The notes below the pieces were generated by a model that saw only the letters and a program-made list of their open reading frames with translations, was not told the origin of the DNA and did no database searches. A program made the translations under genes and the position numbers. This document shows, one piece after another, positions 14,508 to 64,000 of a DNA stretch of 64,000 nt (position 1 is its first letter; the number at the start of each line of letters is the position of its first letter). This DNA comes from Odiellus spinosus. Taxonomy: Eukaryota > Arthropoda > Arachnida > Opiliones > Phalangiidae. Location of the stretch: positions 1,984,001 to 2,048,000 of the forward strand of contig CAWUCO010000268.1 in the NCBI GenBank assembly GCA_963920705.1. The letters are read 5' to 3'.

Positions 14508-14508
14508 T

Positions 14509-17500: not shown

Positions 17501-18710
17501 ACCAAAGTCATTCGAAAAAGCAATTAATGGACAGTCTAAATAACAAGAGTTTTCAAAAATCCGTTGAAAAACAAGAAAAATATGGCCAATTCAAGAAATC
17601 ATAGACCAATATTTTCTCTTTCGAGTGGTCTTAATTTTGTCTAAATCGCTTAAAAATCAAAATTTTGTGTCCATTTGAATCCAATAATCTTGGATTTTTA
17701 AGCGTTTTTGCTTAATTTTAACCAATTTTATATTGGTCACAATTTTGCAATTTAGACAAAACCAAAGTCATTCGAAAGAGCAATTAATGGACAGTCTAAA
17801 TAACAAGAGTTTTCAAAAATCCGTTGAAAAACAAGAAAAATATGGCCAATTCAAGAAATCATAGAATATCAAAATAGTCAAATTTCAGATTTTCAAAATT
17901 CGCTTTTTGATATTAGATGCTTTTTGAATTGTCCATATTTTCCATGTTTTTCAACGGATTTTCCAAAACTCTTGTTTTTTAGATAGACCAATATTTGCTT
18001 TTTCGAGTGGTCTTAATTTTGTCTAAATCGCTTAAAAATCAAAAGTTTTGTGTCCATTTGAATCCAATAATCTTGGATTTTTAAGTGTTTTTGCTTAATT
18101 TTAACCAATTTTATAATTGTCACAATTGTGCAATTTAGACAAAACCAAAGTCATTCGAAAGAGCAATTAATGGACAGTCTAAATAATAAGAGTTTTCAAA
18201 AATCCGTTGAAAAACAAGAAAAATATGGCCAATTCAAGAAACCATACAATATCAAAATAGTCAAATTTCAGATTTTAAAAATTCGCTTTTTGATATTAGA
18301 TGTTTTTTGAATTGGCTATATTTTCCATGTTTTTCAACGGATTTTCCAAAACTCTTGTTTTTTAGATAGACCAATATTTGCTCTTTCGAGTAGTCTTAAT
18401 TTTGTCTAAATCGCTTAAAAATCAAAAGTTTTGTGTCCATTTGAATCCAATAATCTTGGATTTTTAAGTGTTTTTGCTTTATTTTAACCAATTTTATATT
18501 TGTCACAATTTTGCAATTTAGACAAAACCAAAGTCATTCGAAAGAGCAATTAATGGACAGTCTAAATAATAAGAATTTTTTAAAAATCCGTTGAAAAACA
18601 AGAAAAATATGGCCAATTCAAGAAACCATACAATATCAAAATAGTCAAATTTCAGATTTTAAAAATTCGCTTTTTGATATTAGATGTTTTTTGAATTGGC
18701 CATATTTTTC
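14509..18710 (+). repeat. Satellite block 1, forward, ~11 monomers
   Basis: The array resumes in mid monomer after the insertion. One monomer is short: at about 17600 the left arm jumps from AATCATAGA into CCAATATTTTC, losing roughly 120 bp at an ATAGA microhomology. Some copies are hybrids; at 14601-14645 the right arm carries left-arm sequence (GGATTTTTGAAAACTC) before returning to right-arm sequence. Right junction class c. Confidence 0.93.
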
Positions 18711-19365
18711 TTGTTTTTCAACGGATTTTTGAAAACTCTTATTATTTAGACTGTCCATTAATTGCTCTTTCGAATGACTTTGGTTTTGTCTAAATTGCAA
18801 AATTGTGACAAATATAAAATTGGTTAAAATAAAGCAAAAACACTTAAAAATCCAAGATTATTGGATTCAAATGGACACAAAACTTTTGATTTTTAAGCGA
18901 TTTAGACAAAATTAGACCACTCGAAAGAGCAAATATTGGTCTATCTAAAAAACAAGAGTTTTGGAAAATCCGTTGAAAAACAAGAAAAATATGGTCAATT
19001 CAAAAAACATCTAATATCAAAAAGCGAATTTTTAAAATCTGAAATTTGACTATTTTGATATTGTATGGTTTCTTGAATTGGCCATATTTTTCTTGTTTTT
19101 CAACGGATTTTTGAATACTCTTATTATTTAGACTGTCCATTAATTGCTCTTTCGAATGACTTTGGTTTTGTCTAAATTGCAAAATTGTGACAAATATAAA
19201 ATTGGTTAAAATTAAGCAAAAACACTTAAAAATCCAAGATTATTGGATTCAAATGGACACAAAACTTTTGATTTTTAAGCGATTTAGACAAAATTAAGAC
19301 CACTCGAAAGAGCAAATATTGGTCTATCTGAAAATAAAGAGTTTTGGAAAATCCGTTGAAAAACA
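18711..19365 (-). repeat. Satellite block 2, reversed, ~1.7 monomers
   Basis: Class c entry at 18692-18735, class g exit at 19347-19388. This pair of classes is what a single inversion predicts. A 60-codon minus-strand frame at 19000-19182 is the usual left-arm byproduct. Confidence 0.92.
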
Positions 19366-19858
19366 AGAAAAATATGGCCAATTCAAGAAATCATAGAATA
19401 TCAAAATAGTCAAATTTCAGATTTTAAAAATTCGCTTTTTGATATTAGATGTTTTTTGAATTGGCTATATTTTCCATGTTTTTCAACGGATTTTCCAAAA
19501 CTCTTGTTTTTTAGATAGACCAATATTTGCTCTTTCGATTGGTCTTAATTTTGTCTAAATCGCTTAAAAATCAAAAGTTTTGTGTCCATTTGAATCCAAT
19601 AATCTTGGATTTTTAAGTGTTTTTGCTTAATTTTAACCAATTTTATAATTGTCACAATTTTGCAATTTAGACAAAACCAAAGTCATTCGAAAGAGCAATT
19701 AATGGACAGTCTAAATAATAAGAGTTTTCAAAAATCCGTTGAAAAACAAGAAAAATATGGCCAAATCAAGAAACCATACAATATCAAAATAGTCAAATTT
19801 CAGATTTTAAAAATTCGCTTTTTGATATTAGATGTTTTTTGAATTGGCCATATTTTTC
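19366..19858 (+). repeat. Satellite block 3, forward, ~1.3 monomers
   Basis: Entered by class g, left by class c at 19840-19880. It carries a private variant, CTTTCGATTGGTC, seen again in blocks 5 and 7, showing that the three were copied from one another. Confidence 0.92.
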
Positions 19859-20896
19859 TTGTTTTTCAACGGATTTTTGAAAACTCTTATTATTTAGACT
19901 GTCCATTAATTGCTCTTTCGAATGACTTTGGTTTTGTCTAAATTGCAAAATTGTGACAAATATAAAATTGGTTAAAATTGAGCAAAAACGCTTAAAAATC
20001 CAAGATTATTGGATTAAAATGGACACAAAACTTTTGATTTTTAAGCGATTTAGACAAAATTAAGACCACTCGAAAGAGCAAATATTGGTCTATCTGAAAA
20101 TCAAGAGTTTTGGAAAATCCGTTGAAAAACATGGAAAATATGGACAATTCAAAAAACATCTAATATCAAAAAGCGAATTTTTAAAATCTGAAATTTGACT
20201 ATTTTGATATTCTATGATTTCTTGAATTGGCCATATTTTTTTGTTTTTCAACGGATTTTTAAAAAATTCTTATTATTTAGACTGTCCATTAATTGCTCTT
20301 TCGAATGACTTTGGTTTTGTCTAAATTGCAAAATTGTGACAAATATAAAATTGGTTAAAATAAAGCAAAAACACTTAAAAATCCAAGATTATTGGATTCA
20401 AATGGACACAAAACTTTTGATTTTTAAGCGATTTAGACAAAATTAGACCACTCGAAAGAGCAAATATTGGTCTATCTAAAAAACATGAGTTTTGGAAAAT
20501 CCCTTGAAAAACATGGAAAATATGGACAATTCAAAAAACATCTAATATCAAAAAGCGAATTTTGAAAATCTGAAATTTGACTATTTTGATATTGTATGGT
20601 TTCTTGAATTGGCCATATTTTTCTTGTTTTTCAACGGATTTTTGAATACTCTTATTATTTAGACTGTCCATTAATTGCTCTTTCGAATGACTTTGGTTTT
20701 GTCTAAATTGCAAAATTGTGACAAATATAAAATTGGTTAAAATTAAGCAAAAACACTTAAAAATCCAAGATTATTGGATTCAAATGGACACAAAACTTTT
20801 GATTTTTAAGCGATTTAGACAAAATTAAGACCACTCGAAAGAGCAAATATTGGTCTATCTGAAAATAAAGAGTTTTGGAAAATCCGTTGAAAAACA
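19859..20896 (-). repeat. Satellite block 4, reversed, ~2.7 monomers
   Basis: Class c in, class g out at 20876-20918. Contains the variant AACATGAGTTTTGGAAAATC with CCCTTG, found again at the equivalent place near 22740. Confidence 0.92.
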
Positions 20897-21390
20897 AGAA
20901 AAATATGGCCAATTCAAGAAATCATAGAATATCAAAATAGTCAAATTTCAGATTTTAAAAATTCGCTTTTTGATATTAGATGTTTTTTGAATTGGCTATA
21001 TTTTCCATGTTTTTCAACGGATTTTCCAAAACTCTTGTTTTTTAGATAGACCAATATTTGCTCTTTCGATTGGTCTTAATTTTGTCTAAATCGCTTAAAA
21101 ATCAAAAGTTTTGTGTCCATTTGAATCCAATAATCTTGGATTTTTAAGTGTTTTTGCTTAATTTTAACCAATTTTATAATTGTCACAATTTTGCAATTTA
21201 GACAAAACCAAAGTCATTCGAAAGAGCAATTAATGGACAGTCTAAATAATAAGAGTTTTCAAAAATCCGTTGAAAAACAAGAAAAATATGGCCAAATCAA
21301 GAAACCATACAATATCAAAATAGTCAAATTTCAGATTTTAAAAATTCGCTTTTTGATATTAGATGTTTTTTGAATTGGCCATATTTTTCT
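20897..21390 (+). repeat. Satellite block 5, forward, ~1.3 monomers
   Basis: Near copy of block 3, 1531 bp downstream, including the GATTGGTC variant and the AAATCAAG change in the left arm. Right junction class c at 21371-21412. Confidence 0.92.
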
Positions 21391-23154
21391 TGTTTTTCAA
21401 CGGATTTTTGAAAACTCTTATTATTTAGACTGTCCATTAATTGCTCTTTCGAATGACTTTGGTTTTGTCTAAATTGCAAAATTGTGACAAATATAAAATT
21501 GGTTAAAATTAAGCAAAAACGCTTAAAAATCCAAGATTATTGGATTAAAATGGACACAAAACTTTTGATTTTTAAGCGATTTAGACAAAATTAAGACCAC
21601 TCGAAAGAGCAAATATTGGTCTATCTGAAAATCAAGAGTTTTGGAAAATCCGTTGAAAAACATGGAAAATATGGACAATTCAAAAAACATCTAATATCAA
21701 AAAGCGAATTTTTAAAATCTGAAATTTGACTATTTTGATATTCTATGATTTCTTGAATTGGCCATATTTTTTTGTTTTTCAACGGATTTTTAAAAAATTC
21801 TTATTATTTAGACTGTCCATTAATTGCTCTTTCGAATGACTTTGGTTTTGTCTAAATTGCAAAATTGTGACAAATATAAAATTGGTTAAAATTAAGCAAA
21901 AACACTTAAAAATCCAAGATTATTGGATTCAAATGGACACAAAACTTTTGATTTTTAAGCGATTTAGACAAAATTAAGACCACTCGAAAGAGCAAATATT
22001 GGTCTATCTGAAAATAAAGAGTTTTGGAAAATCCGTTGAACAACATGGAAAATATGGACAATTCAAAAAACATCTAATATCAAAAAGCGAATTTTTAAAA
22101 TCTGAAATTTGACTATTTTGATATTCTATGATTTCTTGAATTGGCCATATTTTTCTTGTTTTTCAACGGATTTTTGAAAACTCTTATTATTTAGACTAAA
22201 TTGCAAAATTGTGACAAATATAAAATTGGTTAAAATTAGGCAAAAACGCTTAAAAATCCAAGATTATTGGATTAAAATGGACACAAAACTTCTGATTTTT
22301 AAGCGATTTAGACAAAATTAAGACCACTCGAAAGAGCAAATATTGGTCTATCTGAAAATCAAGAGTTTTGGAAAATCCGTTGAAAAACATGGAAAATATG
22401 GACAATTCAAAAAACATCTAATATCAAAAAGCGAATTTTTAAAATCTGAAATTTGACTACTTTGATATTCTATGATTTCTTGAATTGGCCATATTTTTTG
22501 TTTTTCAACGGATTTTTAAAAAATTCTTATTATTTAGACTGTCCATTAATTGCTCTTTCGAATGACTTTGGTTTTGTCTAAATTGCAAAATTGTGACAAA
22601 TATAAAATTGGTTAAAATAAAGCAAAAACACTTAAAAATCCAAGATTATTGGATTCAAATGGACACAAAACTTTTGATTTTTAAGCGATTTAGACAAAAT
22701 TAGACCACTCGAAAGAGCAAATATTGGTCTATCTAAAAAACATGAGTTTTGGAAAATCCCTTGAAAAACATGGAAAATATGGACAATTCAAAAAACATCT
22801 AATATCAAAAAGCGAATTTTGAAAATCTGAAATTTGACTATTTTGATATTGTATGGTTTCTTGAATTGGCCATATTTTTCTTGTTTTTCAACGGATTTTT
22901 GAATACTCTTATTATTTAGACTGTCCATTAATTGCTCTTTCGAATGACTTTGGTTTTGTCTAAATTGCAAAATTGTGACAAATATAAAATTGGTTAAAAT
23001 TAAGCAAAAACACTTAAAAATCCAAGATTATTGGATTCAAATGGACACAAAACTTTTGATTTTTAAGCGATTTAGACAAAATTAAGACCACTCGAAAGAG
23101 CAAATATTGGTCTATCTGAAAATAAAGAGTTTTGGAAAATCCGTTGAAAAACAA
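21391..23154 (-). repeat. Satellite block 6, reversed, ~4.6 monomers
   Basis: Class c in, class g out at 23133-23176. One monomer lacks 39 bp near 22196 (TTTAGACT joined directly to AAATTGC), between two CT repeats. Confidence 0.92.
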
Positions 23155-23648
23155 GAAAAATATGGCCAATTCAAGAAATCATAGAATATCAAAATAGTCA
23201 AATTTCAGATTTTAAAAATTCGCTTTTTGATATTAGATGTTTTTTGAATTGGCTATATTTTCCATGTTTTTCAACGGATTTTCCAAAACTCTTGTTTTTT
23301 AGATAGACCAATATTTGCTCTTTCGATTGGTCTTAATTTTGTCTAAATCGCTTAAAAATCAAAAGTTTTGTGTCCATTTGAATCCAATAATCTTGGATTT
23401 TTAAGTGTTTTTGCTTAATTTTAACCAATTTTATAATTGTCACAATTTTGCAATTTAGACAAAACCAAAGTCATTCGAAAGAGCAATTAATGGACAGTCT
23501 AAATAATAAGAGTTTTCAAAAATCCGTTGAAAAACAAGAAAAATATGGCCAAATCAAGAAACCATACAATATCAAAATAGTCAAATTTCAGATTTTAAAA
23601 ATTCGCTTTTTGATATTAGATGTTTTTTGAATTGGCCATATTTTTCTT
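23155..23648 (+). repeat. Satellite block 7, forward, ~1.3 monomers
   Basis: Third copy of the block 3/5 type, 2257 bp after block 5. Right junction class c at 23628-23669. Confidence 0.92.
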
Positions 23649-25905
23649 GTTTTTCAACGGATTTTTGAAAACTCTTATTATTTAGACTGTCCATTAATTG
23701 CTCTTTCGAATGACTTTGGTTTTGTCTAAATTGCAAAATTGTGACAAATATAAAATTGGTTAAAATTAAGCAAAAACGCTTAAAAATCCAAGATTATTGG
23801 ATTAAAATGGACACAAAACTTTTGATTTTTAAGCGATTTAGACAAAATTAAGACCACTCGAAAGAGCAAATATTGGTCTATCTGAAAATCAAGAGTTTTG
23901 GAAAATCCGTTGAAAAACATGGAAAATATGGACAATTCAAAAAACATCTAATATCAAAAAGCGAATTTTTAAAATCTGAAATTTGACTATTTTGATATTC
24001 TATGATTTCTTGAATTGGCCATATTTTTTTGTTTTTCAACGGATTTTTAAAAAATTCTTATTATTTAGACTGTCCATTAATTGCTCTTTCGAATGACTTT
24101 GGTTTTGTCTAAATTGCAAAATTGTGACAAATATAAAATTGGTTAAAATTAAGCAAAAACACTTAAAAATCCAAGATTATTGGATTCAAATGGACACAAA
24201 ACTTTTGATTTTTAAGCGATTTAGACAAAATTAAGACCACTCGAAAGAGCAAATATTGGTCTATCTGAAAATAAAGAGTTTTGGAAAATCCGTTGAACAA
24301 CATGGAAAATATGGACAATTCAAAAAACATCTAATATCAAAAAGCGAATTTTTAAAATCTGAAATTTGACTATTTTGATATTCTATGATTTCTTGAATTG
24401 GCCATATTTTTCTTGTTTTTCAACGGATTTTTGAAAACTCTTATTATTTAGACTAAATTGCAAAATTGTGACAAATATAAAATTGGTTAAAATTAGGCAA
24501 AAACGCTTAAAAATCCAAGATTATTGGATTAAAATGGACACAAAACTTCTGATTTTTAAGCGATTTAGACAAAATTAAGACCACTCGAAAGAGCAAATAT
24601 TGGTCTATCTGAAAATCAAGAGTTTTGGAAAATCCGTTGAAAAACATGGAAAATATGGACAATTCAAAAAACATCTAATATCAAAAAGCGAATTTTTAAA
24701 ATCTGAAATTTGACTACTTTGATATTCTATGATTTCTTGAATTGGCCATATTTTTTGTTTTTCAACGGATTTTTAAAAAATTCTTATTATTTAGACTGTC
24801 CATTAATTGCTCTTTCGAATGACTTTGGTTTTGTCTAAATTGCAAAATTGTGACAAATATAAAATTGGTTAAAATTAAGCAAAAACACTTAAAAATCCAA
24901 GATTATTGGATTCAAATGGACACAAAACTTTTGATTTTTAAGCGATTTAGACAAAATTAAGACCACTCGAAAGAGCAAATAATGGTCTATCTAAAAAACA
25001 AGAGTTTTGGAAAATCCGTTGAAAAACATGGAAAATATAGCCAATTCAAAAAACATCTAATATCAAAAAGCGAATTTTTAAAATCTGAAATTTGACTATT
25101 TTGATATTCTATGATTTTTTGAATTGGCCATATTTTTCTTGTTTTTCAACGGATTTTTGAAAACTCTTATTATTTAGACTGTCCGTTAATTGCTCTTTCG
25201 AATGACTTTGGTTTTGTCTAAATTGCAAAATTGTGACAAATATAAAATTGGTTAAAATTAAGCAAAAACGCTTAAAAATCCAAGATTATTGGATTAAAAT
25301 GGACACAAAACTTTTGATTTTTAAGCGATTTAGACAAAATTAAGACCACTCGAAAGAGCAAATATTGGTCTATCTGAAAATCAAGAGTTTTGGAAAATCC
25401 GTTGAAAAACATGGAAAATATGGACAATTCAAAAAACATCTAATATCAAAAAGCGAATTTTTAAAATCTGAAATTTGACTATTTTGATATTCTATGATTT
25501 CTTGAATTGGCCATATTTTTTTGTTTTTCAACGGATTTTTAAAAAATTCTTATTATTTAGACTGTCCATTAATTGCTCTTTCGAATGACTTTGGTTTTGT
25601 CTAAATTGCAAAATTGTGACAAATATAAAATTGGTTAAAATTAAGCAAAAACACTTAAAAATCCAAGATTATTGGATTCAAATGGACACAAAACTTTTGA
25701 TTTTTAAGCGATTTAGACAAAATTAAGACCACTCGAAAGAGCAAATATTGGTCTATCTGAAAATAAAGAGTTTTGGAAAATCCGTTGAAAAACATGGAAA
25801 ATATAGCCAATTCAAAAAACATCTAATATCAAAAAGCGAATTTTTAAAATCTGAAATTTGACTATTTTGATATTGTATGATTTCTTGAATTGGCCATATT
25901 TTTCT
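23649..25905 (-). repeat. Satellite block 8, reversed, ~5.9 monomers
   Basis: Begins as a copy of block 6, with the same 39-bp deletion near 24453, then continues further. Exit is class t at 25886-25925, so this block pairs c with t, which a single simple inversion does not predict. Confidence 0.92.
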
Positions 25906-26090
25906 TGTTTTTCAACGGATTTTCCAAAACTCTTGATTTTCAGATAGACCAATATTTGCTCTTTCGAGTGGTCTTAATTTTGTCTACATCGCTTAAAAAT
26001 CAAAAGTTTTGTGTCCATTTGAATCCAATAATCTTGGATTTTTAAGTGTTTTTGCTTAATTTTAACCAATTTTATATTTGTCACAATTTT

Positions 26091-34979: not shown

Positions 34980-35472
34980 AGAAAAATATGGCCAATTCAA
35001 GAAATCATACAATATCAAAATAGTCAAATTTCAGATTTTCAAAATTCGCTTTTTGATATTAGATGTTTTTTGAATTGTCCATATTTTCCATGTTTTTCAA
35101 GGGATTTGCCAAAACTCATGTTTTTTAGATAGACCAATATTTGCTCTTTCGAGTAGTCTTAATTTTGTCTAAATCGCTTAAAAATCAAAAGTTTTGTGTC
35201 CATTTGAATCCAATAATCTTGGATTTTTAATCGTTTTTGCTTAATTTTAACCAATTTTATATTTGTCACAATTTTGCAATTTAGACAAAACCAAAGTCAT
35301 TCGAAAGAGCAATTAATGGACAGTCTAAATAATAAGAGTTTTCAAAAATCCGTTGAAAAACAAGAAAAATATGGCCAATTCAAGAAACCATACAATATCA
35401 AAATAGTCAAATTTCAGATTTTAAAAATTCGCTTTTTGATATTAGATGTTTTTTGAATTGGCCATATTTTTC
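34980..35472 (+). repeat. Satellite block 11, forward, ~1.3 monomers
   Basis: Same size and junction classes (g then c) as blocks 3, 5 and 7, but without the GATTGGTC marker. It is either an independent event or an older copy. Confidence 0.92.
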
Positions 35473-48203: not shown

Positions 48204-49463
48204 AGAAAAATATGGCCAATTCAAAAAACATCTAATATCAAAAAGCGAATTTTGAAAATCTGAAATTTGACTATTTTGATATTGTATGGTTCCTCGAATT
48301 GGCCATATTTTTCTTGTTTTTCAACGGATTTTTGAAAACTCTTGTTATTTAGACTGTCCATTAATTGCTCTTTCGAATGACTTTGGTTTTGTCTAAATTG
48401 CCAAGACGTGACAAATATAAAATTGGTTAAAATAAAGCAAAAACACTTAAAAATCCAAGATTATTGGATTCAAATGGACACAAAACTTTTGATTTTTGAG
48501 CGATTTAGACAAAATTAAGACTACTCGAAAGAACAAATATTGGTCTATCTAAAAAACAAGAGTTTTGGAAAATCCGTTGAAAAACATGGAAAATATAGCC
48601 AATTCAAAAAACATCTAATATCAAAAAGCGAATTTTTAAAATCTGAAATTTGACTATTTTGATATTGTATGGTTTCTTGAATTGGCCATATTTTTCTTGT
48701 TTTTCAACGGATTTTTGAAAACTCTTATTATTTAGACTGTCCATTAATTGCTCTTTCGAATGACTTTGGTTTTGTCTAAATTGCAAAATTGTGACAATTA
48801 TAAAATTGGTTAAAATTAAGCAAAAACACTTAAAAATCCAAGATTATTGGATTAAAATGGACACAAAACTTTTGATTTTTAAGCGATTTAGACAAAATTA
48901 AGACCACTCGAAAGAGCAAATATTGGTCTATCTGAAAATCAAGAGTTTTGGAAAATCCGTTGAAAAACATGGAAAATATAGCCAATTCAAAAAACATCTA
49001 ATATCAAAAAGCGAATTTTTAAAATCTGAAATTTGACTATTTTGATATTGTATGGTTTCTTGAATTGGCCATATTTTTCTTGTTTTTCAACGGATTTTTG
49101 AAAACTCTTATTATTTAGACTGTGCATTAATTGCTCTTTCGAATGACTTTGGTTTTGTCTAAATTGCAAAATTGTGACCAATATAAAATTGGTTAAAATT
49201 AGGCAAAACGCTTAAAAATCCAAGATTATTGGATTCAAATAGACACAAAACTTTTGATTTTTAAGCGATTTAGACAAAATTAAGACCACTCGAAAGAGCA
49301 AATATTGGTCTATCTGAAAATCAAGAGTTTTGGAAAATCCGTTGAAAAACATGGAAAATATAGCCAATTCAAAAAACATCTAATATCAAAAAGCGAATTT
49401 TTAAAATCTGAAATTTGACTATTTTGATATTGTATGATTTCTTGAATTGGCCATATTTTTCTT
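48204..49463 (-). repeat. Satellite block 22, reversed, ~3.3 monomers
   Basis: Near-identical copy of block 20 at +1911 bp, with the same TTCCTCGAATTGG marker and same junction classes (l, t). Confidence 0.93.
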
Positions 49464-50121
49464 GTTGTTCAACGGATTTTCCAAAACTCTTGATTTTCAG
49501 ATAGACCAATATTTGCTCTTTCGAGTGGTCTTAATTTTGTCTAAATCGCTTAAAAATCAAAAGTTTTGTGTCCATTTTAATCCAATAATCTTGGATGTTT
49601 AAGCGTTTTTGCTTAATTTTAACCAATTTTATATTTGTCACAATTTTGCAATTTAGACAAAACCAAAGTCATTCGAAAGAGCAATTAATGGACAGTCTAA
49701 ATAATAAGAGTTTTCAAAAATCCGTTGAAAAACAAGAAAAATATGGCTAATTCAAGAAACCATACAATATCAAAATAGTCAAATTTCAGATTTTAAAAAT
49801 TCGCTTTTTGATATTAGATGTTTTTTGAATTGTCCATATTTTCCATGTTTTTCAAGGGATTTTCCAAAAGTCATGTTTTTAAGATAGACCAATATTTGCT
49901 CTTTCGAGTGGTCTAATTTTGTCTAAATCGCTTAAAAATCAAAAGTTTTGTGTCCATTTGAATCCAATAATCTTGGATTTTTAAGTGTTTTTGCTTTATT
50001 TTAACCAATTTTATATTTGTCACAATTTTGCAATTTAGACAAAACCAAAGTAATTAGAAAGAGCAATTAATGGACAGTCTAAATAATAAGAGTTTTCAAA
50101 AATCCGTTGAAAAACAAGAAA
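49464..50121 (+). repeat. Satellite block 23, forward, ~1.7 monomers
   Basis: Copy of block 21 at about +1911 bp. Exit class l at 50100-50142. Confidence 0.92.
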
Positions 50122-51251
50122 AATATGGACAATTCAAAAAACATCTAATATCAAAAAGCGAATTTTGAAAATCTGAAATTTGACTATTTTGATATTGTAT
50201 GGTTTCTCGAATTGGCCATATTTTTCTTGTTTTTCAACGGATTTTTGAAAACTCTTGTTATTTAGACTGTCCATTAATTGCTCTTTCGAATGACTTTGGA
50301 TTTGTCTAAATTGCCAAGACGTGACAAATATAAAATTGGTTAAAATAAAGCAAAAACACTTAAAAATCCAAGATTATTGGATTCAAATGGACACAAAACT
50401 TTTGATTTTTAAGCGATTTAGACAAAATTAAGACTACTCGAAAGAGCAAATATTGGTCTATCTAAAAAACAAGAGTTTTGGAAAATCCGTTGAAAAACAT
50501 GGAAAATATAGCCAATTCAAAAAACATCTAATATCAAAAAGCGAATTTTTAAAATCTGAAATTTGACTATTTTGATATTGTATGGTTTCTTGAATTGGCC
50601 ATATTTTTCTTGTTTTTCAACGGATTTTTGAAAACTCTTATTATTTAGACTGTCCATTAATTGCTCTTTCGAATGACTTTGGTTTTGTCTAAATTGCAAA
50701 ATTGTGACAATTATAAAATTGGTTAAAATTAAGCAAAAACACTTAAAAATCCAAGATTATTGGATTCAAATGGACACAAAACTTTTGATTTTTAAGCGAT
50801 TTAGACAAAATTAAGACCACTCGAAAGATCAAATATTGGTCTATCTGAAAATCAAGAGTTTTGGAAAATCCGTTGAAAAACATGGAAAATATGGACAATT
50901 CAAAAAACATCTAATATCAAAAAGCGAATTTTTAAAATCTGAAATTTGACTATTTTGATATTGTATGATTTCTTGAATTGGCCATATTTTTTCTTGTTTT
51001 TCAACGGATTTTTGAAAACTCTTGTTATTTAGACTGTCCATTAATTGCTCTTTCGAATGACTTTGGTTTTGTCTAAATTGCAAAATTGTGACCAATATAA
51101 AATTGGTTAAAATTAGGCAAAACGCTTAAAAATCCAAGATTATTGGATTCAAATAGACACAAAACTTTTGATTTTTAAGCGATTTAGACAAAATTAAGAC
51201 CACTCGAAATATTTTGATATTGTATGATTTCTTTAATTGGCCATATTTTTC
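50122..51251 (-). repeat. Satellite block 24, reversed, ~3 monomers
   Basis: Starts like blocks 20 and 22. Ends with a shortened monomer: at about 51208 CCACTCGAAA joins TATTTTGATATTG, losing roughly 135 bp. Class t exit at 51232-51270. Confidence 0.92.
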
Positions 51252-53056
51252 TTGTTTTTCAAGGGATTTTCCAAAACTCTTGATTTTCAGATAGACCAAT
51301 ATTTGCTCTTTCGAGTGGTCTAATTTTGTCTAAATCGCTTAAAAATCAAAAGTTTTGTGTCCATTTGAATCCAATAATCTTGGATTTTTAAGCGTTTTTG
51401 CTTAATTTTAACCAATTTTATATTGGTCACAATTTTGCAATTTAGACAAAACCAAAGTCATTCGAAAGAGCAATTAATGGACAGTCTAAATAATAAGAGT
51501 TTTCAAAAATCCGTTGAAAAACAAGAAAAATATGGCCAATTCAAGAAATCATAGAATATCAAAATAGTCAAATTTCAGATTTTCAAAATTCGCTTTTTGA
51601 TATTAGATGTTTTTTGAATTGTCCATATTTTCCATGTTTTTCAACGGATTTTCCAAAACTCATGTTTTTTAGATAGACCAATATTTGCTCTTTCGAGTGG
51701 TCTAATTTTGTCTAAATCGCTTAAAAATCAAAAGTTTTGTGTCCATTTGAATCCAATAATCTTGGATTTTTAAGCGTTTTTGCTTAATTTTAACCAATTT
51801 TATATTGGTCACAATTTTGCAATTTAGACAAAACCAAAGTCATTCGAAAGAGCAATTAATGGACAGTCTAAATAATAAGAGTTTTCAAAAATCCGTTGAA
51901 AAACAAGAAAAATATGGCCAATTCAAGAAACCATACAATATCAAAATAGTCAAATTTCAGATTTTAAAAATTCGCTTTTTGATATTAGATGTTTTTTGAA
52001 TTGGCTATATTTTCCATGTTTTTCAACGGATTTTCCAAAACTCTTGTTTTTTAGATAGACCAATATTTGCTCTTTCGAGTGGTCTTAATTTTGTCTAAAT
52101 CGCTTAAAAATCAAAAGTTTTGTGTCCATTTGAATCCAATAATCTTGGATTTTTAAGCGTTTTTGCTTAATTTTAACCAATTTTATATTTGTCACAATTT
52201 TGCAATTTAGACAAAACCAAAGTCATTCGAAAGAGCAATTAATGGACAGTCTAAATAATAAGAGTTTTCAAAAATCCGTTGAAAAACAAGAAAAATATGG
52301 CCAATTCAAGAAATCATAGAATATCAAAATAGTCAAATTTCAGATTTTCAAAATTCGCTTTTTGATATTAGATGTTTTTTGAATTGTCCATATTTTCCAT
52401 GTTTTTCAACGGATTTTCCAAAACTCATGTTTTTTAGATAGACCAATATTTGCTCTTTCGAGTGGTCTAATTTTGTCTAAATCGCTTAAAAATCAAAAGT
52501 TTTGTGTCCATTTGAATCCAATAATCTTGGATTTTTAAGCGTTTTTGCTTAATTTTAACCAATTTTATATTGGTCACAATTTTGCAATTTAGACAAAACC
52601 AAAGTCATTCGAAAGAGCAATTAATGGACAGTCTAAATAATAAGAGTTTTCAAAAATCCGTTGAAAAACAAGAAAAATATGGCCAATTCAAGAAACCATA
52701 CAATATCAAAATAGTCAAATTTCAGATTTTAAAAATTCGCTTTTTGATATTAGATGTTTTTTGAATTGTCCATATTTTCCATGTTTTTCAACGGATTTTC
52801 CAAAACTCATGTTTTTTAGATAGACCAATATTTGCTCTTTCGAGTGGTCTAATTTTGTCTAAATCGCTTAAAAATCAAAAGTTTTGTGTCCATTTGAATC
52901 CAATAATCTTGGATTTTTAAGTGTTTTTGCTTTATTTTAACCAATTTTATATTTGTCACAATTTTGCAATTTAGACAAAACCAAAGTCATTCGAAAGAGC
53001 AATTAATGGACAGTCTAAATAATAAGAGTTTTCAAAAATCCGTTGAAAAACAAGAA
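51252..53056 (+). repeat. Satellite block 25, forward, ~4.7 monomers
   Basis: Alternates monomers with AAAACTCATG and AAAACTCTTG in the right arm. Exit class l at 53035-53078. Confidence 0.92.
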
Positions 53057-55169
53057 AAATATGGCCAATTCAAAAAACATCTAATATCAAAAAGCGAATT
53101 TTGAAAATCTGAAATTTGACTATTTTGATATTGTATGGTTTCTTGAATTGGCCATATTTTTCTTGTTTTTCAACGGATTTTTGAAAACTCTTATTATTTA
53201 GACTGTCCATTAATTGCTCTTTCGAATGACTTTGGTTTTGTCTAAATTGCAAAAATCCGTTGAAAAACAAGAAAAATATGGCCAATTCAAAAAACATCTA
53301 ATATCAAAAAGCGAATTTTTAAAATCTGAAATTTGACTATTTGATATTGTATGGTGTCTTGAATTGGAGATATTTTTCTTGTTTTTCAACGGATTTTTGA
53401 AAACTCTTATTATTTAGACTGTCCATTAATTGCTCATTCGAATGACTTTGGTTTTGTCTAAATTGCAAAATTGTGACAAATATAAAATTGGTTAAAATTA
53501 AGCAAAAACGCTTAAAAATCCAAGATTATAGGATTCAAATGGACACAAAACTTTTGATTTTTAAGCGATTTAGACAAAATTAAGACCACTCGAAAGAGCA
53601 AATATTGGTCTATCTGAAAATCAAGAGTTTTGGAAAATCCGTTGAAAAACATGGAAAATATGGACAATTCAAAAAACATCTAATATCAAAAAGCGAATTT
53701 TTAAAATCTGAAATTTGACTATTTTGATATTGTATGATTTCTTGAATTGGCCATATTTTTCTTGTTTTTCAACGGATTTTTGAAAACTCTTGTTATTTAG
53801 ACTGTCCATTAATTGCTCTTTCGAATGACTTTGGTTTTGTCTAAATTGCAAAATTGTGACCAATATAAAATTGGTTAAAATAAAGCAAAAACGCTTAAAA
53901 ATCCAAGATTATTGGATTCAAATGGACACAAAACTTTTGATTTTTAAGCGATTTAGACAAAATTAAGACCACTCGAAAGAGCAAATATTGGTCTATCTGA
54001 AAATCAAGAGTTTTGGAAAATCCGTTGAAAAACATGGAAAATATGGACAATTCAAAAAACATCTAATATCAAAAAGCGAATTTTTAAAATCTGAAATTTG
54101 ACTATTTTGATATTGTATGATTTCTTGAATTGGCCATATTTTTCTTGTTTTTCAACGGATTTTTGAAAACTCTTGTTATTTAGACTGTCCATTGATTGCT
54201 CTTTCGAATGACTTTGGTTTTGTCTAAATTGCAAAATTGTGACAAATATAAAATTGGTTAAAATTAAGCAAAAACGCTTAAAAATCCAAGATTATAGGAT
54301 TCAAATGGACACAAAACTTTTGATTTTTAAGCGATTTAGACAAAATTAAGACCACTCGAAAGAGCAAATATTGGTCTATCTGAAAATCAAGAGTTTTGGA
54401 AAATCCGTTGAAAAACATGGAAAATATGGACAATTCAAAAAACATCTAATATCAAAAAGCGAATTTTTAAAATCTGAAATTTGACTATTTTGATATTGTA
54501 TGATTTCTTGAATTGGCCATATTTTTCTTGTTTTTAACGGATTTTTGAAAACTCTTGTTATTTAGACTGTCCATTAATTGCTCTTTCGAATGACTTTGGT
54601 TTTGTCTAAATTGCAAAATTGTGACCAATATAAAATTGGTTAAAATTAAGCAAAAACGCTTAAAAATCCAAGATTATTGGATTCAAATGGACACAAAACT
54701 TTTGATTTTTAAGCGATTTAGACAAAATTAAGACCACTCGAAAGATCAAATATTGGTCTATCTGAAAATCAAGAGTTTTGGAAAATCCGTTGAAAAACAT
54801 GGAAAATATGGACAATTCAAAAAACATCTAATATCAAAAAGCGAATTTTTAAAATCTGAAATTTGACTATTTTGATATTGTATGATTTCTTGAATTGGCC
54901 ATATTTTTTCTTGTTTTTCAACGGATTTTTGAAAACTCTTGTTATTTAGACTGTCCATTAATTGCTCTTTCGAATGACTTTGGTTTTGTCTAAATTGCAA
55001 AATTGTGACCAATATAAAATTGGTTAAAATTAGGCAAAACGCCTAAAAATCCAAGATTATTGGATTCAAATAGACACAAAACTTTTGATTTTTAAGCGAT
55101 TTAGACAAAATTAAGACCACTCGAAATATTTTGATATTGTATGATTTCTTTAATTGGCCATATTTTTCT
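53057..55169 (-). repeat. Satellite block 26, reversed, ~5.5 monomers
   Basis: Carries the ~166-bp deletion of block 18 near 53250 and the ~135-bp deletion of block 24 near 55125, so it joins segments derived from both. Class t exit at 55150-55188. Confidence 0.92.
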
Positions 55170-57356
55170 TGTTTTTCAAGGGATTTTCCAAAACTCTTGA
55201 TTTTCAGATAGACCAATATTTGCTCTTTCGAGTGGTCTAATTTTGTCTAAATCGCTTAAAAATCAAAAGTTTTGTGTCCATTTGAATCCAATAATCTTGG
55301 ATTTTTAAGCGTTTTTGCTTAATTTTAACCAATTTTATATTGGTCACAATTTTGCAATTTAGACAAAACCAAAGTCATTCGAAAGAGCAATTAATGGACA
55401 GTCTAAATAATAAGAGTTTTCAAAAATCCGTTGAAAAACAAGAAAAATATGGCCAATTCAAGAAATCATAGAATATCAAAATAGTCAAATTTCAGATTTT
55501 CAAAATTCGCTTTTTGATATTAGATGTTTTTTGAATTGTCCATATTTTCCATGTTTTTCAACGGATTTTCCAAAACTCATGTTTTTTAGATAGACCAATA
55601 TTTGCTCTTTCGAGTGGTCTAATTTTGTCTAAATCGCTTAAAAATCAAAAGTTTTGTGTCCATTTGAATCCAATAATCTTGGATTTTTAAGCGTTTTTGC
55701 TTAATTTTAACCAATTTTATATTGGTCACAATTTTGCAATTTAGACAAAACCAAAGTCATTCGAAAGAGCAATTAATGGACAGTCTAAATAATAAGAGTT
55801 TTCAAAAATCCGTTGAAAAACAAGAAAAATATGGCCAATTCAAGAAACCATACAATATCAAAATAGTCAAATTTCAGATTTTAAAAATTCGCTTTTTGAT
55901 ATTAGATGTTTTTTGAATTGGCTATATTTTCCATGTTTTTCAACGGATTTTCCAAAACTCTTGTTTATTAGATAGACCAATATTTGCTCTTTCGAGTGGT
56001 CTTAATTTTGTCTAAATCGCTTAAAAATCAAAAGTTTTGTGTCCATTTGAATCCAATAATCTTGGATTTTTAAGCGTTTTTGCTTAATTTTAACCAATTT
56101 TATATTGGTCACAATTTTGCAATTTAGACAAAACCAAAGTCATTCGAAAGAGCAATTAATGGACAGTCTAAATAATAAGAGTTTTCAAAAATCCGTTGAA
56201 AAACAAGAAAAATATGGCCAATTCAAGAAACCATACAATATCAAAATAGTCAAATTTCAGATTTTAAAAATTCGCTTTTTGATATTAGATGTTTTTTGAA
56301 TTGGCTATATTTTCCATGTTTTTCAACGGATTTTCCAAAACTCTTGTTTTTTAGATAGACCAATATTTGCTCTTTCGAGTGGTCTTAATTTTGTCTAAAT
56401 CGCTTAAAAATCAAAAGTTTTGTGTCCATTTGAATCCAATAATCTTGGATTTTTAAGCGTTTTTGCTTAATTTTAACCAATTTTATATTTGTCACAATTT
56501 TGCAATTTAGACAAAACCAAAGTCATTCGAAAGAGCAATTAATGGACAGTCTAAATAATAAGAGTTTTCAAAAATCCGTTGAAAAACAAGAAAAATATGG
56601 CCAATTCAAGAAATCATAGAATATCAAAATAGTCAAATTTCAGATTTTCAAAATTCGCTTTTTGATATTAGATGTTTTTTGAATTGTCCATATTTTCCAT
56701 GTTTTTCAACGGATTTTCCAAAACTCATGTTTTTTAGATAGACCAATATTTGCTCTTTCGAGTGGTCTAATTTTGTCTAAATCGCTTAAAAATCAAAAGT
56801 TTTGTGTCCATTTGAATCCAATAATCTTGGATTTTTAAGCGTTTTTGCTTAATTTTAACCAATTTTATATTGGTCACAATTTTGCAATTTAGACAAAACC
56901 AAAGTCATTCGAAAGAGCAATTAATGGACAGTCTAAATAATAAGAGTTTTCAAAAATCCGTTGAAAAACAAGAAAAATATGGCCAATTCAAGAAATCATA
57001 GAATATCAAAATAGTCAAATTTCAGATTTTCAAAATTCGCTTTTTGATATTAGATGTTTTTTGAATTGTCCATATTTTCCATGTTTTTCAACGGATTTTC
57101 CAAAACTCATGTTTTTTAGATAGACCAATATTTGCTCTTTCGAGTGGTCTAATTTTGTCTAAATCGCTTAAAAATCAAAAGTTTTGTGTCCATTTGAATC
57201 CAATAATCTTGGATTTTTAAGTGTTTTTGCTTTATTTTAACCAATTTTATATTTGTCACAATTTTGCAATTTAGACAAAACCAAAGTCATTCGAAAGAGC
57301 AATTAATGGACAGTCTAAATAATAAGAGTTTTCAAAAATCCGTTGAAAAACAAGAA
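55170..57356 (+). repeat. Satellite block 27, forward, ~5.7 monomers
   Basis: Copy of block 25 with one extra monomer of about 383 bp (near 56108-56490). Class l exit at 57335-57378. Confidence 0.92.
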
Positions 57357-60300
57357 AAATATGGCCAATTCAAAAAACATCTAATATCAAAAAGCGAATT
57401 TTGAAAATCTGAAATTTGACTATTTTGATATTGTATGGTTTCTTGAATTGGCCATATTTTTCTTGTTTTTCAACGGATTTTTGAAAACTCTTATTATTTA
57501 GACTGTCCATTAATTGCTCTTTCGAATGACTTTGGTTTTGTCTAAATTGCAAAAATCCGTTGAAAAACAAGAAAAATATGGCCAATTCAAAAAACATCTA
57601 ATATCAAAAAGCGAATTTTTAAAATCTGAAATTTGACTATTTGATATTGTATGGTGTCTTGAATTGGAGATATTTTTCTTGTTTTTCAACGGATTTTTGA
57701 AAACTCTTATTATTTAGACTGTCCATTAATTGCTCATTCGAATGACTTTGGTTTTGTCTAAATTGCAAAATTGTGACAAATATAAAATTGGTTAAAATTA
57801 AGCAAAAACGCTTAAAAATCCAAGATTATAGGATTCAAATGGACACAAAACTTTTGATTTTTAAGCGATTTAGACAAAATTAAGACCACTCGAAAGAGCA
57901 AATATTGGTCTATCTGAAAATCAAGAGTTTTGGAAAATCCGTTGAAAAACATGGAAAATATGGACAATTCAAAAAACATCTAATATCAAAAAGCGAATTT
58001 TTAAAATCTGAAATTTGACTATTTTGATATTGTATGATTTCTTGAATTGGCCATATTTTTCTTGTTTTTCAACGGATTTTTGAAAACTCTTGTTATTTAG
58101 ACTGTCCATTAATTGCTCTTTCGAATGACTTTGGTTTTGTCTAAATTGCAAAATTGTGACCAATATAAAATTGGTTAAAATAAAGCAAAAACGCTTAAAA
58201 ATCCAAGATTATTGGATTCAAATGGACACAAAACTTTTGATTTTTAAGCGATTTAGACAAAATTAAGACCACTCGAAAGAGCAAATATTGGTCTATCTGA
58301 AAATCAAGAGTTTTGGAAAATCCGTTGAAAAACATGGAAAATATGGACAATTCAAAAAACATCTAATATCAAAAAGCGAATTTTTAAAATCTGAAATTTG
58401 ACTATTTTGATATTGTATGATTTCTTGAATTGGCCATATTTTTCTTGTTTTTCAACGGATTTTTGAAAACTCTTGTTATTTAGACTGTCCATTGATTGCT
58501 CTTTCGAATGACTTTGGTTTTGTCTAAATTGCAAAATTGTGACAAATATAAAATTGGTTAAAATTAAGCAAAAACGCTTAAAAATCCAAGATTATAGGAT
58601 TCAAATGGACACAAAACTTTTGATTTTTAAGCGATTTAGACAAAATTAAGACCACTCGAAAGAGCAAATATTGGTCTATCTGAAAATCAAGAGTTTTGGA
58701 AAATCCGTTGAAAAACATGGAAAATATGGACAATTCAAAAAACATCTAATATCAAAAAGCGAATTTTTAAAATCTGAAATTTGACTATTTTGATATTGTA
58801 TGATTTCTTGAATTGGCCATATTTTTCTTGTTTTTAACGGATTTTTGAAAACTCTTGTTATTTAGACTGTCCATTAATTGCTCTTTCGAATGACTTTGGT
58901 TTTGTCTAAATTGCAAAATTGTGACCAATATAAAATTGGTTAAAATTAAGCAAAAACGCTTAAAAATCCAAGATTATTGGATTCAAATGGACACAAAACT
59001 TTTGATTTTTAAGCGATTTAGACAAAATTAAGACCACTCGAAAGAGCAAATATTGGTCTATCTAAAAAACAAGAGTTTTGGAAAATCCGTTGAAAAACAT
59101 GGAAAATATGGACAATTCAAAAAGCATCTAATATCAAAAAGCGAATTTTGAAAATCTGAAATTTGACTATTTTGATATTCTATGATTTCTTGAAGAGGCC
59201 ATATTTTTCTTGTTTTTCAAAGGATTTTTGAAAACTCTTGTTATTTAGACTGTCCATTAATTGCTCTTTCGAATGACTTTGGTTTTGTCTAAATTGCAAA
59301 ATTGTGACCAATATAAAATTGGTTAAAATTAAGCAAAAACGCTTAAAAATCCAAGATTATTGGATTCAAATGGACACAAAACTTTTGATTTTTAAGCGAT
59401 TTAGACAAAATTAAGACCACTCGAAAGAGCAAATATTGGTCTATCTGAAAATCAAGAGTTTTGGAAAATCCGTTGAAAAACATGGAAAATATGGACAATT
59501 CAAAAAACATCTAATATCAAAAAGCGAATTTTTAAAATCTGAAATTTGACTTTTTTGATATTGTATGATTTCTTGAATTGGCCATATTTTTCTTGTTTTT
59601 CAACGGATTTTTGAAAACTCTTGTTATTTAGACTGTCCATTAATTGCTCTTTCGAATGACTTTGATTTTGTCTAAATTGCAAAATTGTGACAAATATAAA
59701 ATTGGTTAAAATTAAGCAAAAACGCTTAAAAATCCAAGATTATAGGATTCAAATGGACACAAAACTTTTGATTTTTAAGCGATTTAGACAAAATTAAGAC
59801 CACTCGAAAGAGCAAATATTGGTCTATCTGAAAATCAAGAGTTTTGGAAAATCCGTTGAAAAACATGGAAAATATGGACAATTCAAAAAACATCTAATAT
59901 CAAAAAGCGAATTTTTAAAATCTGAAATTTGACTATTTTGATATTGTATGATTTCTTGAATTGGCCATATTTTTCTTGTTTTTCAACGGATTTTTGAAAA
60001 CTCTTGTTATTTAGACTGTCCATTGATTGCTCTTTCGAATGACTTTGGTTTTGTCTAAATTGCAAAATTGTGACAAATATAAAATTGGTTAAAATTAAGC
60101 AAAAACGCTTAAAAATCCAAGATTATAGGATTCAAATGGACACAAAACTTTTGATTTTTAAGCGATTTAGACAAAATTAAGACCACTCGAAAGAGCAAAT
60201 ATTGGTCTATCTGAAAATCAAGAGTTTTGGAAAATCCGTTGAAAAACATGGAAAATATGGACAATTCAAAAAACATCTAATATCAAAAAGCGAATTTTTA

Positions 60301-61126
60301 AAATCTGAAATTTGACTATTTTGATATTGTATGATTTCTTGAATTGGCCATATTTTTCTTGTTTTTAACGGATTTTTGAAAACTCTTGTTATTTAGACTG
60401 TCCATTAATTGCTCTTTCGAATGACTTTGGTTTTGTCTAAATTGCAAAATTGTGACCAATATAAAATTGGTTAAAATTAAGCAAAAACGCTTAAAAATCC
60501 AAGATTATTGGATTCAAATGGACACAAAACTTTTGATTTTTAAGCGATTTAGACAAAATTAAGACCACTCGAAAGAGCAAATATTGGTCTATCTGAAAAT
60601 CAAGAGTTTTGGAAAATCCGTTGAAAAACATGGAAAATATAGCCAATTCAAAAAACATCTAATATCAAAAAGCGAATTTTTAAAATCTGAAATTTGACTA
60701 TTTTGATATTGTATGGTTTCTTGAATTGGCCATATTTTTCTTGTTTTTCAACGGATTTTTGAAAACTCTTATTATTTAGACTGTGCATTAATTGCTCTTT
60801 CGAATGACTTTGGTTTTGTCTAAATTGCAAAATTGTGACCAATATAAAATTGGTTAAAATTAGGCAAAACGCTTAAAAATCCAAGATTATTGGATTCAAA
60901 TAGACACAAAACTTTTGATTTTTAAGCGATTTAGACAAAATTAAGACCACTCGAAAGAGCAAATATTGGTCTATCTGAAAATCAAGAGTTTTGGAAAATC
61001 CGTTGAAAAACATGGAAAATATAGCCAATTCAAAAAACATCTAATATCATAAAGCGAATTTTTAAAATCTGAAATTTGACTATTTTGATATTGTATGATT
61101 TCTTGAATTGGCCATATTTTTCTTGT
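57357..61126 (-). repeat. Satellite block 28, reversed, ~9.9 monomers
   Basis: Third copy of the ~166-bp deletion (near 57550), then the 1531-bp unit again (CCATTGATTGCTC near 58490 and 60021). From about 60600 it changes to the block 22 type. Class t exit at 61108-61145. Confidence 0.93.
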
Positions 61127-61778
61127 TGTTCAACGGATTTTCCAAAACTCTTGATTTTCAGATAGACCAATATTTGCTCTTTCGAGTGGTCTTAATTTTG
61201 TCTAAATCGCTTAAAAATCAAAAGTTTTGTGTCCATTTTAATCCAATAATCTTGGATGTTTAAGCGTTTTTGCTTAATTTTAACCAATTTTATATTTGTC
61301 ACAATTTTGCAATTTAGACAAAACCAAAGTCATTCGAAAGAGCAATTAATGGACAGTCTAAATAATAAGAGTTTTCAAAAATCCGTTGAAAAACAAGAAA
61401 AATATGGCTAATTCAAGAAACCATACAATATCAAAATAGTCAAATTTCAGATTTTAAAAATTCGCTTTTTGATATTAGATGTTTTTTGAATTGTCCATAT
61501 TTTCCATGTTTTTCAAGGGATTTTCCAAAAGTCATGTTTTTAAGATAGACCAATATTTGCTCTTTCGAGTGGTCTAATTTTGTCTAAATCGCTTAAAAAT
61601 CAAAAGTTTTGTGTCCATTTGAATCCAATAATCTTGGATTTTTAAGTGTTTTTGCTTTATTTTAACCAATTTTATATTTGTCACAATTTTGCAATTTAGA
61701 CAAAACCAAAGTCATTAGAAAGAGCAATTAATGGACAGTCTAAATAATAAGAGTTTTCAAAAATCCGTTGAAAAACAA
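61127..61778 (+). repeat. Satellite block 29, forward, ~1.7 monomers
   Basis: Copy of block 23, 11.66 kb downstream, with TTGTTGTTCAACGG and TTGGATGTTTAAGC. Class l exit at 61757-61800. Confidence 0.92.
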
Positions 61779-62268
61779 GAAAAATATGGCCAATTCAAAA
61801 AACATCTAATATCAAAAAGCGAATTTTGAAAATCTGAAATTTGACTATTTTGATATTGTATGGTTTCTCGAATTGGCCATATTTTTCTTGTTTTTCAACG
61901 GATTTTTGAAAACTCTTGTTATTTAGACTGTCCATTAATTGCTCTTTCGAATGACTTTGGATTTGTCTAAATTGCCAAGACGTGACAAATATAAAATTGG
62001 TTAAAATAAAGCAAAAACACTTAAAAATCCAAGATTATTGGATTCAAATGGACACAAAACTTTTGATTTTTAAGCGATTTAGACAAAATTAAGACTACTC
62101 GAAAGAGCAAATATTGGTCTATCTAAAAAACAAGAGTTTTGGAAAATCCGTTGAAAAACATGGAAAATATAGCCAATTCAAAAAACATCTAATATCAAAA
62201 AGCGAATTTTTAAAATCTGAAATTTGACTATTTTGATATTGTATGGTTTCTTGAATTGTCCATATTTT
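61779..62268 (-). repeat. Satellite block 30, reversed, ~1.3 monomers
   Basis: Holds the TGCCAAGACGTGAC linker at 61973. Its class t exit (62252-62285) lies slightly earlier in the arm than others. Confidence 0.92.
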
Positions 62269-64000
62269 CCATGTTTTTCAACGGATTTTCCAAAACTCTT
62301 GTTTTTTAGATAGACCAATATTTGCTCTTTCGAGTGGTCTTAATTTTGTCTAAATCGCTTAAAAATCAAAAGTTTTGTGTCCATTTGAATCCAATAATCT
62401 TGGATTTTTAAGCGTTTTTACTTAATTTTAACCAATTTTATATTGGTCACAATTTTGCAATTTAGACAAAACCAAAGTCATTCGAAAGAGCAATTAATGG
62501 ACAGTCTAAATAATAAGAGTTTTCAAAAATCCGTTGAAAAACAAGAAAAATATGGCCAATTCAAGAAATCATAGAATATCAAAATAGTCAAATTTCAGAT
62601 TTTCAAAATTCGCTTTTTGATATTAGATGTTTTTTGAATTGTCCATATTTTCCATGTTTTTCAAGGGATTTTCCAAAACTCATGTTTTTTAGATAGACCA
62701 ATATTTGCTCTTTCGAGTGGTCTAATTTTGTCTAAATCGCTTAAAAATCAAAAGTTTTGTGTCCATTTGAATCCAATAATCTTGGATTTTTAAGCGTTTT
62801 TGCTTAATTTTAACCAATTTTATATTGGTCACAATTTTGCAATTTAGACAAAACCAAATTCATTCGAAAGAGCAATTAATGGACAGTCTAAATAATAAGA
62901 GTTTTCAAAAATCCGTTGAAAAACAAGAAAAATATGGCCAATTCAAGAAATCATAGAATATCAAAATAGTCAAATTTCAGATTTTCAAAATTCGCTTTTT
63001 GATATTAGATGTTTTTTTAATTGGCTATATTTTCCATGTTTTTCAACGGATTTTCCAAAACTCTTGTTTTTTAGATAGACCAATATTTGCTCTTTCGAGT
63101 GGTCTTAATTTTGTCTAAATCGCTTAAAAATCAAAAGTTTTGTGTCCATTTGAATCCAATAATCTTGGATTTTTAAGCGTTTTTGCTTAATTTTAACCAA
63201 TTTTATATTTGTCACAATTTTGCAATTTAGACAAAACCAAAGTCATTCGAAAGAGCAATTAATGGACAGTCTAAATAATAAGAGTTTTCAAAAATCCGTT
63301 GAAAAACAAGAAAAATATGGCCAATTCAAGAAATCATAGAATATCAAAATAGTCAAATTTCAGATTTTCAAAATTCGCTTTTTGATATTAGATGTTTTTT
63401 GAATTGTCCATATTTTCCATGTTTTTCAACGGATTTTCCAAAACTCATGTTTTTTAGATAGACCAATATTTGCTCTTTCGAGTGGTCTAATTTTGTCTAA
63501 ATCGCTTAAAAATCAAAAGTTTTGTGTCCATTTGAATCCAATAATCTTGGATTTTTATGCGTTTTTGCTTAATTTTAACCAATTTTATATTGGTCACAAT
63601 TTTGCAATTTAGACAAAACCAAAGTCATTCGAAAGAGCAATTAATGGACAGTCTAAATAATAAGAGTTTTCAAAAATCCGTTGAAAAACAAGAAAAATAT
63701 GGCCAATTCAAGAAACCATACAATATCAAAATAGTCAAATTTCAGATTTTAAAAATTCGCTTTTTGATATTAGATGTTTTTTGAATTGGCTATATTTTCC
63801 ATGTTTTTCAACGGATTTTCCAAAACTCTTGATTTTCAGATAGACCAATATTTGCTCTTTCGAGTGGTCTTAATTTTGTCTAAATCGCTTAAAAATCAAA
63901 AGTTTTGTGTCCATTTGAATCCTATAATCTTGGATTTTTAAGCGTTTTTGCTTAATTTTAACCAATTTTATATTTGTCACAATTTTGCAATTTAGACAAA
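62269..64000 (+). repeat. Satellite block 31, forward, ~4.5 monomers, runs off the window
   Basis: Uniform forward monomers to the right edge, so the array continues beyond. The 75-codon frame at 63557-63784 is a left-arm frame extended through the linker by chance. Confidence 0.94.

Follow-up and report, generated by a model that had tools for sequence, protein, structure and literature searches.

Satellite DNAs are usually described as head-to-tail arrays, and a satellite that changes strand many times over raises the question of how its orientation came to be mixed. Such an array occupies much of a 64,000-nucleotide stretch of the Odiellus spinosus genome (GenBank assembly GCA_963920705.1, contig CAWUCO010000268.1, positions 1,984,001 to 2,048,000 of the forward strand; hereafter the window), in which an AT-rich satellite that repeats every 383-384 bp is found at 4048-7680 and from 14509 to the window end. 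A sequence-only reading had counted 30 strand switches between 18.7 and 62.3 kb, all within one arm core of about 40 bp of a palindromic monomer, and judged them to fit homologous crossover between opposite arms. As the arms differ at diagnostic bases, the switches can be read at base level, and it can be asked directly whether they reflect recurrent inversion or the copying of a few inverted junctions. We find that the junctions are chimaeras of the two arms, that both junction classes carry the core type of the left arm, and that junctions have been copied within the array. On balance, we consider it probable that a few founder inversions arose by core exchange between opposite arms, with loss of the right-arm core, and were spread by exchange between units of the same orientation.

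The array is a dyad satellite, in which each 383-bp monomer comprises two diverged half-units arranged head to head. The order is a 38-bp left-arm core (C1), a 69-bp short loop (S), the inverted right-arm core (C2) and a 238-bp long loop (L), and S is followed by L, and L by S, throughout the array, deletions excepted. The inverted halves are long, with agreement at 138 of 202 aligned consensus columns, and 36 of the 39 columns of the arm core are identical between C1 and C2 (counted by eye on the alignment), in line with the claim of the sequence-only reading (36 of 40) that the core is where the arms agree best. The longest exact match between the arms, 18 bp, lies in the core; the next runs, elsewhere, are 12, 12 and 10 bp. 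Within the switching region, the C1 core (profile columns 0-37) is one of the monomer's less variable segments (nucleotide diversity, pi, 0.0136 vs 0.028 overall; minor allele >5% in 0 of 38 columns), which could hint at constraint on the C1 core alone; pi is lower still in the S arm on the C2 side (0.0093) and reaches 0.035 in the C2 core.

Orientation was labelled with a jumping-profile hidden Markov model (HMM), consisting of a 384-column monomer trained on the window with jumps permitted between all states, and run on 3901-64000. It replaced an exact-pattern (regex) census of cores that proved unreliable (116 cores vs 281 HMM arms). Exactly 30 strand changes resulted, all between 18699 and 62252. 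At the default jump cost all 30 fell inside the arm core, as had been proposed; after full alignment the switches are confined to the core rather than spread evenly through the monomer. Reruns on 14401-64000 again gave 30 switches each, with 30 of 30 in the core under a cheaper jump penalty and 28 under a dearer one, where the exceptions (51212 and 55129) are the same junction in two copies, next to a deletion of approximately 125 bp. As a power control, one array was simulated in which register-keeping switches were placed uniformly. The HMM found all 30 of its interior switches to within 6 bp, and only 7 of the 30 were called in the core (a listed 31st "true" event is merely the end of the simulated sequence). 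Uniform breakpoints are therefore ruled out (30/30 vs 7/30, one replicate), and so is a bias of the HMM toward the core, both by this simulation and by the direct-orientation deletions at 17604, 22197, 24455, 51210 and 55127, which the model called outside it. The two copies of the core together make up 21% of the monomer, and the chance that all switches fall there is 4e-14 with the 20 junction contexts described below taken as separate events, or 0.046 with just two events; since copies of a junction are not independent, switches were also counted as clusters.

The roughly 20 monomers that precede 18.69 kb share one orientation, and the interior blocks between switches hold 1 to 42 loop segments each (Table 1). 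From 14509 on, 24,461 aligned bases lie in plus and 25,027 in minus orientation, which agrees with the earlier estimate of about half in each. Register and length are kept at 28 of the 30 junctions, so that the statement that junctions keep register and lose nothing holds for these and fails for two, 51252 and 55169, which have the deletion of approximately 125 bp at 20 bp from the switch.

Table 1. Satellite segments, reference monomer, switch cores (X, + to -; Y, - to +) and unswitched C2 arms with a C1-type core, in window coordinates.
Feature	Position	Strand	Remark
Satellite array	4048..7680	+	single orientation, no switch
Satellite array	14509..18690	+	single orientation until first switch
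Switching region	18691..62289	.	30 orientation switches, S/L loops alternating
Satellite array	62290..64000	+	past last switch, continues beyond window
Reference monomer, C1 (left) arm core	15255..15292	+	profile columns 0-37
Reference monomer, short loop S	15293..15361	+	profile columns 38-106
Reference monomer, C2 (right, inverted) arm core	15362..15400	+	profile columns 107-145
Reference monomer, long loop L	15401..15638	+	profile columns 146-383
Switch core X	18691..18729	-	
Switch core Y	19348..19386	+	
Switch core X	19839..19877	-	
Switch core Y	20879..20917	+	
Switch core X	21370..21408	-	
Switch core Y	23136..23174	+	
Switch core X	23627..23665	-	
Switch core Y	25885..25923	-	
Switch core X	33921..33959	-	
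Switch core Y	34962..35000	+	
Switch core X	35453..35491	-	
Switch core Y	36111..36149	+	with 36219 flanks one flipped S loop
Switch core X	36219..36257	-	
Switch core Y	36984..37022	-	
Switch core X	38405..38443	+	
Switch core Y	39279..39317	-	with 39554 flanks one flipped L loop
Switch core X	39554..39592	+	
Switch core Y	45512..45550	+	
Switch core X	46275..46313	+	
Switch core Y	47531..47569	-	
Switch core X	48186..48224	+	
Switch core Y	49442..49480	-	
Switch core X	50099..50137	+	sole X with A at column 67
Switch core Y	51232..51270	-	~125-bp deletion 20 bp off
Switch core X	53035..53073	+	
Switch core Y	55149..55187	-	copy of 51232, same deletion
Switch core X	57335..57373	+	
Switch core Y	61103..61141	-	
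Switch core X	61760..61798	+	
Switch core Y	62251..62289	-	sole C2-type core among the 30
Unswitched C2 arm	14594..14632	-	C1-type core and C1 inner L flank
Unswitched C2 arm	18965..19003	+	C1-type core
Unswitched C2 arm	36876..36914	+	C1-type core

Cutting the array into arms yielded 281 sequences: 125 C1, 126 C2, 15 X and 15 Y (three rows labelled C2, at 17603, 51209 and 55126, lack a core, being deletion joints, and were kept in the counts). X junctions have C1 on the L side and C2 on the S side, and Y junctions the reverse; C1 and C2 are told apart at columns 33/34, 54, 57 and 76. All 15 X junctions read C1 through column 57, including column 54, and C2 before or at column 76, with a C at column 67 in 14 and an A in one (50118). 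In 14 of the 15 Y junctions, C2 at columns 33/34 is followed by C1 at 54 and 57, so that the turn lies between columns 34 and 54; the exception, 62271, reads C2 through column 67. The two classes therefore break at opposite edges of the core, X at the S-loop edge (15/15) and Y at the L-loop edge (14/15), and 29 of the 30 switch cores are of the C1 type at columns 54 and 57. Simple crossovers leave one product of each core type, and half of the cores would be expected to be of the C2 type. No private variant common to all X or to all Y was found among the 30 junctions. A site-specific inversion with one fixed crossover point does not fit, given the different edges at which X and Y break. Pfam detected no tyrosine or serine recombinase in a Ty3/gypsy-type gag-pol frame, the one scanned of nine frames of at least 90 amino acids, and an enzyme encoded elsewhere could still act in trans.

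Among unswitched arms, 6 of 126 C2 arms carry the C1 alleles at both columns 54 and 57, and none of the 125 C1 arms carries the C2 alleles there. This asymmetry toward C1 is weak because of copies, three of the six C2 arms being copies beside one deletion. In the arm at 18965-19003, the C1-type core is possibly a scar of non-crossover conversion or of reversion. The prevalence of C1-type cores at the switches could also be accounted for without conversion if the switches are old, dating from a time when both arms shared a C1-type core, and the C2 core later gained T54 and G57, which spread in C2 arms only. The low variability of the C1 core would suit such a history, though the S arm on the C2 side varies less; the junction flanks, however, carry the segregating variants of the general pool, and one Y core is of the C2 type. 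We think this explanation improbable.

Junctions have also been copied within the array. With clusters defined by 1% divergence over about +/-380 bp around the junction, the 30 switches collapse to 20 junction contexts (10 X and 10 Y clusters), and 17 of the 30 belong to multi-copy clusters, that is, to recent copies. The longest among at least 5000 match pieces are higher-order copies of 98.5-99.3% identity that carry switches and deletions along; outside such copies, the mean L-loop divergence is 3.0%. The stretches 19938-23174 and 22196-25432 are 99.3% identical, and switches 20897 and 21389 of the former recur at 23154 and 23646. At 99.2% identity, 45620-49295 pairs with 47531-51209 (46294, 47551 and 48205 recurring at 48205, 49462 and 50118) and 51235-55126 with 55534-59426 (53054 recurring at 57354); at 98.5%, 50088-53073 pairs with 54006-56991 (51252 recurring at 55169) and 48186-50639 with 59848-62300 (49462 and 50118 recurring at 61123 and 61779). 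The stretches 39926-43756 and 57324-61153 (99.1%) have a deletion in common and no switch in common, the latter being bounded by switches 57354 and 61123 and the former continuing in one orientation. That switches recur in higher-order copies differing by 0.7-1.5% over 2.5-3.9 kb also makes an assembly artefact, in the form of inverted chimaeric reads or misjoined contigs, barely credible; moreover, chimaeric reads would be mirrored, which these junctions are not, and the breakpoints are confined to two fixed edges.

The absence of mirroring bears also on the possibility that the palindrome prompted fold-back replication or template switching, which would produce inverted duplications. The strand does fold far better than its shuffles (predicted DNA fold -96.5 kcal/mol, z -15, for one 383-base stretch that spans switch 20897). 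The mirrored units at the 30 switches, however, have no excess identity. The first mirrored L pair diverges by 3.3% / 3.9%, against 3.3% for any pair in opposite orientation, and of 175 mirrored L pairs in opposite orientation one lies within 1%, where about three are expected (L loops with deletions, of 200 aligned bases or fewer, were left out). A few mirrored positions read 0.0-0.4%; there the comparison crosses a short block and meets a copy in the same orientation. Likewise, the nearest relative of an L loop (n=113) is in the same orientation in 94 cases, in the opposite one in 5 and tied in 14. As mirrored units are no more alike than other opposite pairs, the data argue against recent fold-back copying; any mirror signal of old events would be gone, and overall we regard fold-back as very unlikely.

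The lack of a mirror excess, together with relatives that are mostly in the same orientation, therefore favours exchange between opposite arms, few founders and spread in direct orientation. A C1 arm would exchange with an inverted C2 arm within the core of about 40 bp, inverting the interval and keeping register, as the form of the junctions suggests; the core may serve as the exchange site because it holds the longest identity between the arms. In the founding exchanges, the C2 core would have been replaced by a C1 core, either because a break in the C2 core was repaired from C1 with crossover or because the C2 partner had been converted beforehand. We infer that founders were few, at least one X and one or two Y, and that they were multiplied, and their flanks renewed, by unequal exchange in the same orientation and by higher-order duplication. 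Function is not required to explain a switching array. A doubtful extension is that the core is a directional exchange hotspot, the C2 core being the focus of breaks or invasion and becoming converted to C1. If so, each inversion would leave a perfect match of 40 bp that eases later ones, and the satellite would be self-reinforcing in scrambling its own orientation.

Alternatively, up to 15 inversions may have arisen from many independent homologous crossovers between opposite arms, each with conversion of the C2 core to C1, ongoing inversion then equalising the orientations. The balance of orientations fits this explanation, as do the 20 distinct junction contexts, the C1-type cores inside otherwise C2 arms, the single-loop flips at 36111-36257 and 39279-39592, and a single sequence pool for both orientations (L-loop divergence 3.3% for opposite-orientation pairs and 3.0% as the mean otherwise). 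Against it stand the uniform breakpoints at opposite edges, the 29 C1-type cores, the share of switches in multi-copy clusters and the lack of reciprocity between X and Y flanks. Of 24 intact C1 arms of the region with the S-side haplotype TC, 22 have a C at L-side column 22. TC occurs in 6 of 10 Y clusters, more often than in C1 arms (24/105; P 0.013), and about 6 of 10 X clusters would be expected to carry the column-22 C were X and Y paired products; none of the 10 does (P ~2e-7 with clusters taken as independent; 0.011 by Fisher's test of 6/10 expected vs 0/10; 0.03 against the regional frequency). We consider many independent crossovers possible, but rather unlikely. Of the crossover proposed in the sequence-only reading, the exchange between opposite arms survives, given that register is kept, the longest arm identity is used and no mirror duplication is seen; a series of simple independent events does not, in view of the opposite edges, the core type, the non-reciprocal flanks and the copied junctions.

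Several points weigh against a history of few founders spread by direct exchange. A match of 40 bp is short for classical homologous recombination, and the reciprocity test takes 10 clusters as independent draws. Several pairs of higher-order copies have one copy switched at a core and its partner not, which implies that some core rearrangement is recent, postdating the duplication; such pairs also suit many crossovers. The junction flanks are nearly as varied as those of ordinary arms, as many separate crossovers would also have it: with 300 control samples per flank, the share of controls as uniform or more was 0.100 for the X L-flank, 0.58 for the X S-flank, 0.02 for the Y L-flank and 0.063 for the Y S-flank (13 of 15 junctions, 51252 and 55169 being left out for their deletion). 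Either the flanks have been thoroughly reshuffled or there were more founders, and uniform flanks as proof of a single founder were not found, as the flanks are diverse. Finally, all junction readings occur (S/l, l/S, L/s and s/L) and the segment number is even in 5 of the 29 interior blocks, which calls for overlapping or large later inversions. The S/l and l/S readings lie mainly in 18691-36257 and the L/s and s/L readings mainly in 36984-62289 (exceptions 25885 and 45512), a left/right partition pointing to large later inversions, one or a few in number.

The closest known system is the macro-dyad satellite arrays of Tribolium, which, according to PMC13081366, are so far documented only in that genus. 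According to the same account, arrays of TmSat1 and TmSat2 of Tribolium madens change monomer orientation at conserved inversion sites, the TmSat2 monomer holds inverted related subunits, and for TmSat2 the authors propose that the most similar of these recombine ectopically (PMC13081366). As described there, T. madens shares with the present array inverted subunits within the monomer and changes of orientation within one array (30 switches here). Conserved sequence at the inversion sites is a further likeness to the Tribolium type, the X (15/15) and Y (14/15) junctions of this one window sharing core type and breakpoint side. The arrays differ in that those of T. madens are described as mostly two subarrays, whereas the present one has 30 switches in 44 kb and single-loop flips, and in that Tribolium inversion-site subunits are described as having diverged sequence of their own, whereas the junction cores here are simple left/right-arm chimaeras. 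By description rather than sequence, the satellite also resembles that of Trichogramma brassicae in monomer length and internal inverted repeats (385 bp, with 80-bp inverted repeats; cited in PMC13081366, where it is not described as changing orientation), and that of Tribolium brevicornis in its intra-monomer dyad, though not in unit length (1061 bp, with inverted segments of ~470 bp; cited in PMC13081366). The Tribolium authors propose that mixed orientation matters for (peri)centromeric chromatin (PMC13081366). Conversion toward C1, if real, would offer a concrete route from a dyad satellite to a long array of mixed orientation. Exact-pattern scans for relatives of the satellite in viral and prokaryote contig collections gave no match, as expected for a eukaryotic satellite. 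In the literature, one 13-base string of the satellite recurs in a pigeonpea marker paper, probably by chance.

A Ty3/gypsy-type gag-pol open frame with reverse transcriptase, RNase H and integrase (by Pfam) occupies 1-3789 on the minus strand and would be in keeping with an animal host. The apparent long terminal repeat side of the element (1-4047, minus strand) ends at the satellite, at 4048, and the element looks like an insertion into the satellite. Between the two satellite segments lies a 6.8-kb non-satellite interruption (7681-14508; profile column 24 before and 22 after it), with fold-back elements at approximately 7672-8466 (arms 96-99% identical) and 10841-11347 (arms 100%), a tandem repeat of ~142 bp at 12893-13290 and, near 10.6-12 kb, degenerate ACCTAACCT-like repeats; CCTAA occurs 17 times in these 6.8 kb, against about 8 expected. 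The window gave no match to Rfam families at gathering scores and no tRNA. Within the array, one 167-bp L-loop deletion is present in three copies (40156, 53254 and 57554), ending in a C1-type core with a C2 S side and with a short A-run overlap at the joint. The deletions at 17604, at 22197 and 24455, and at 51210 and 55127 have both ends outside the core, unlike the switches.

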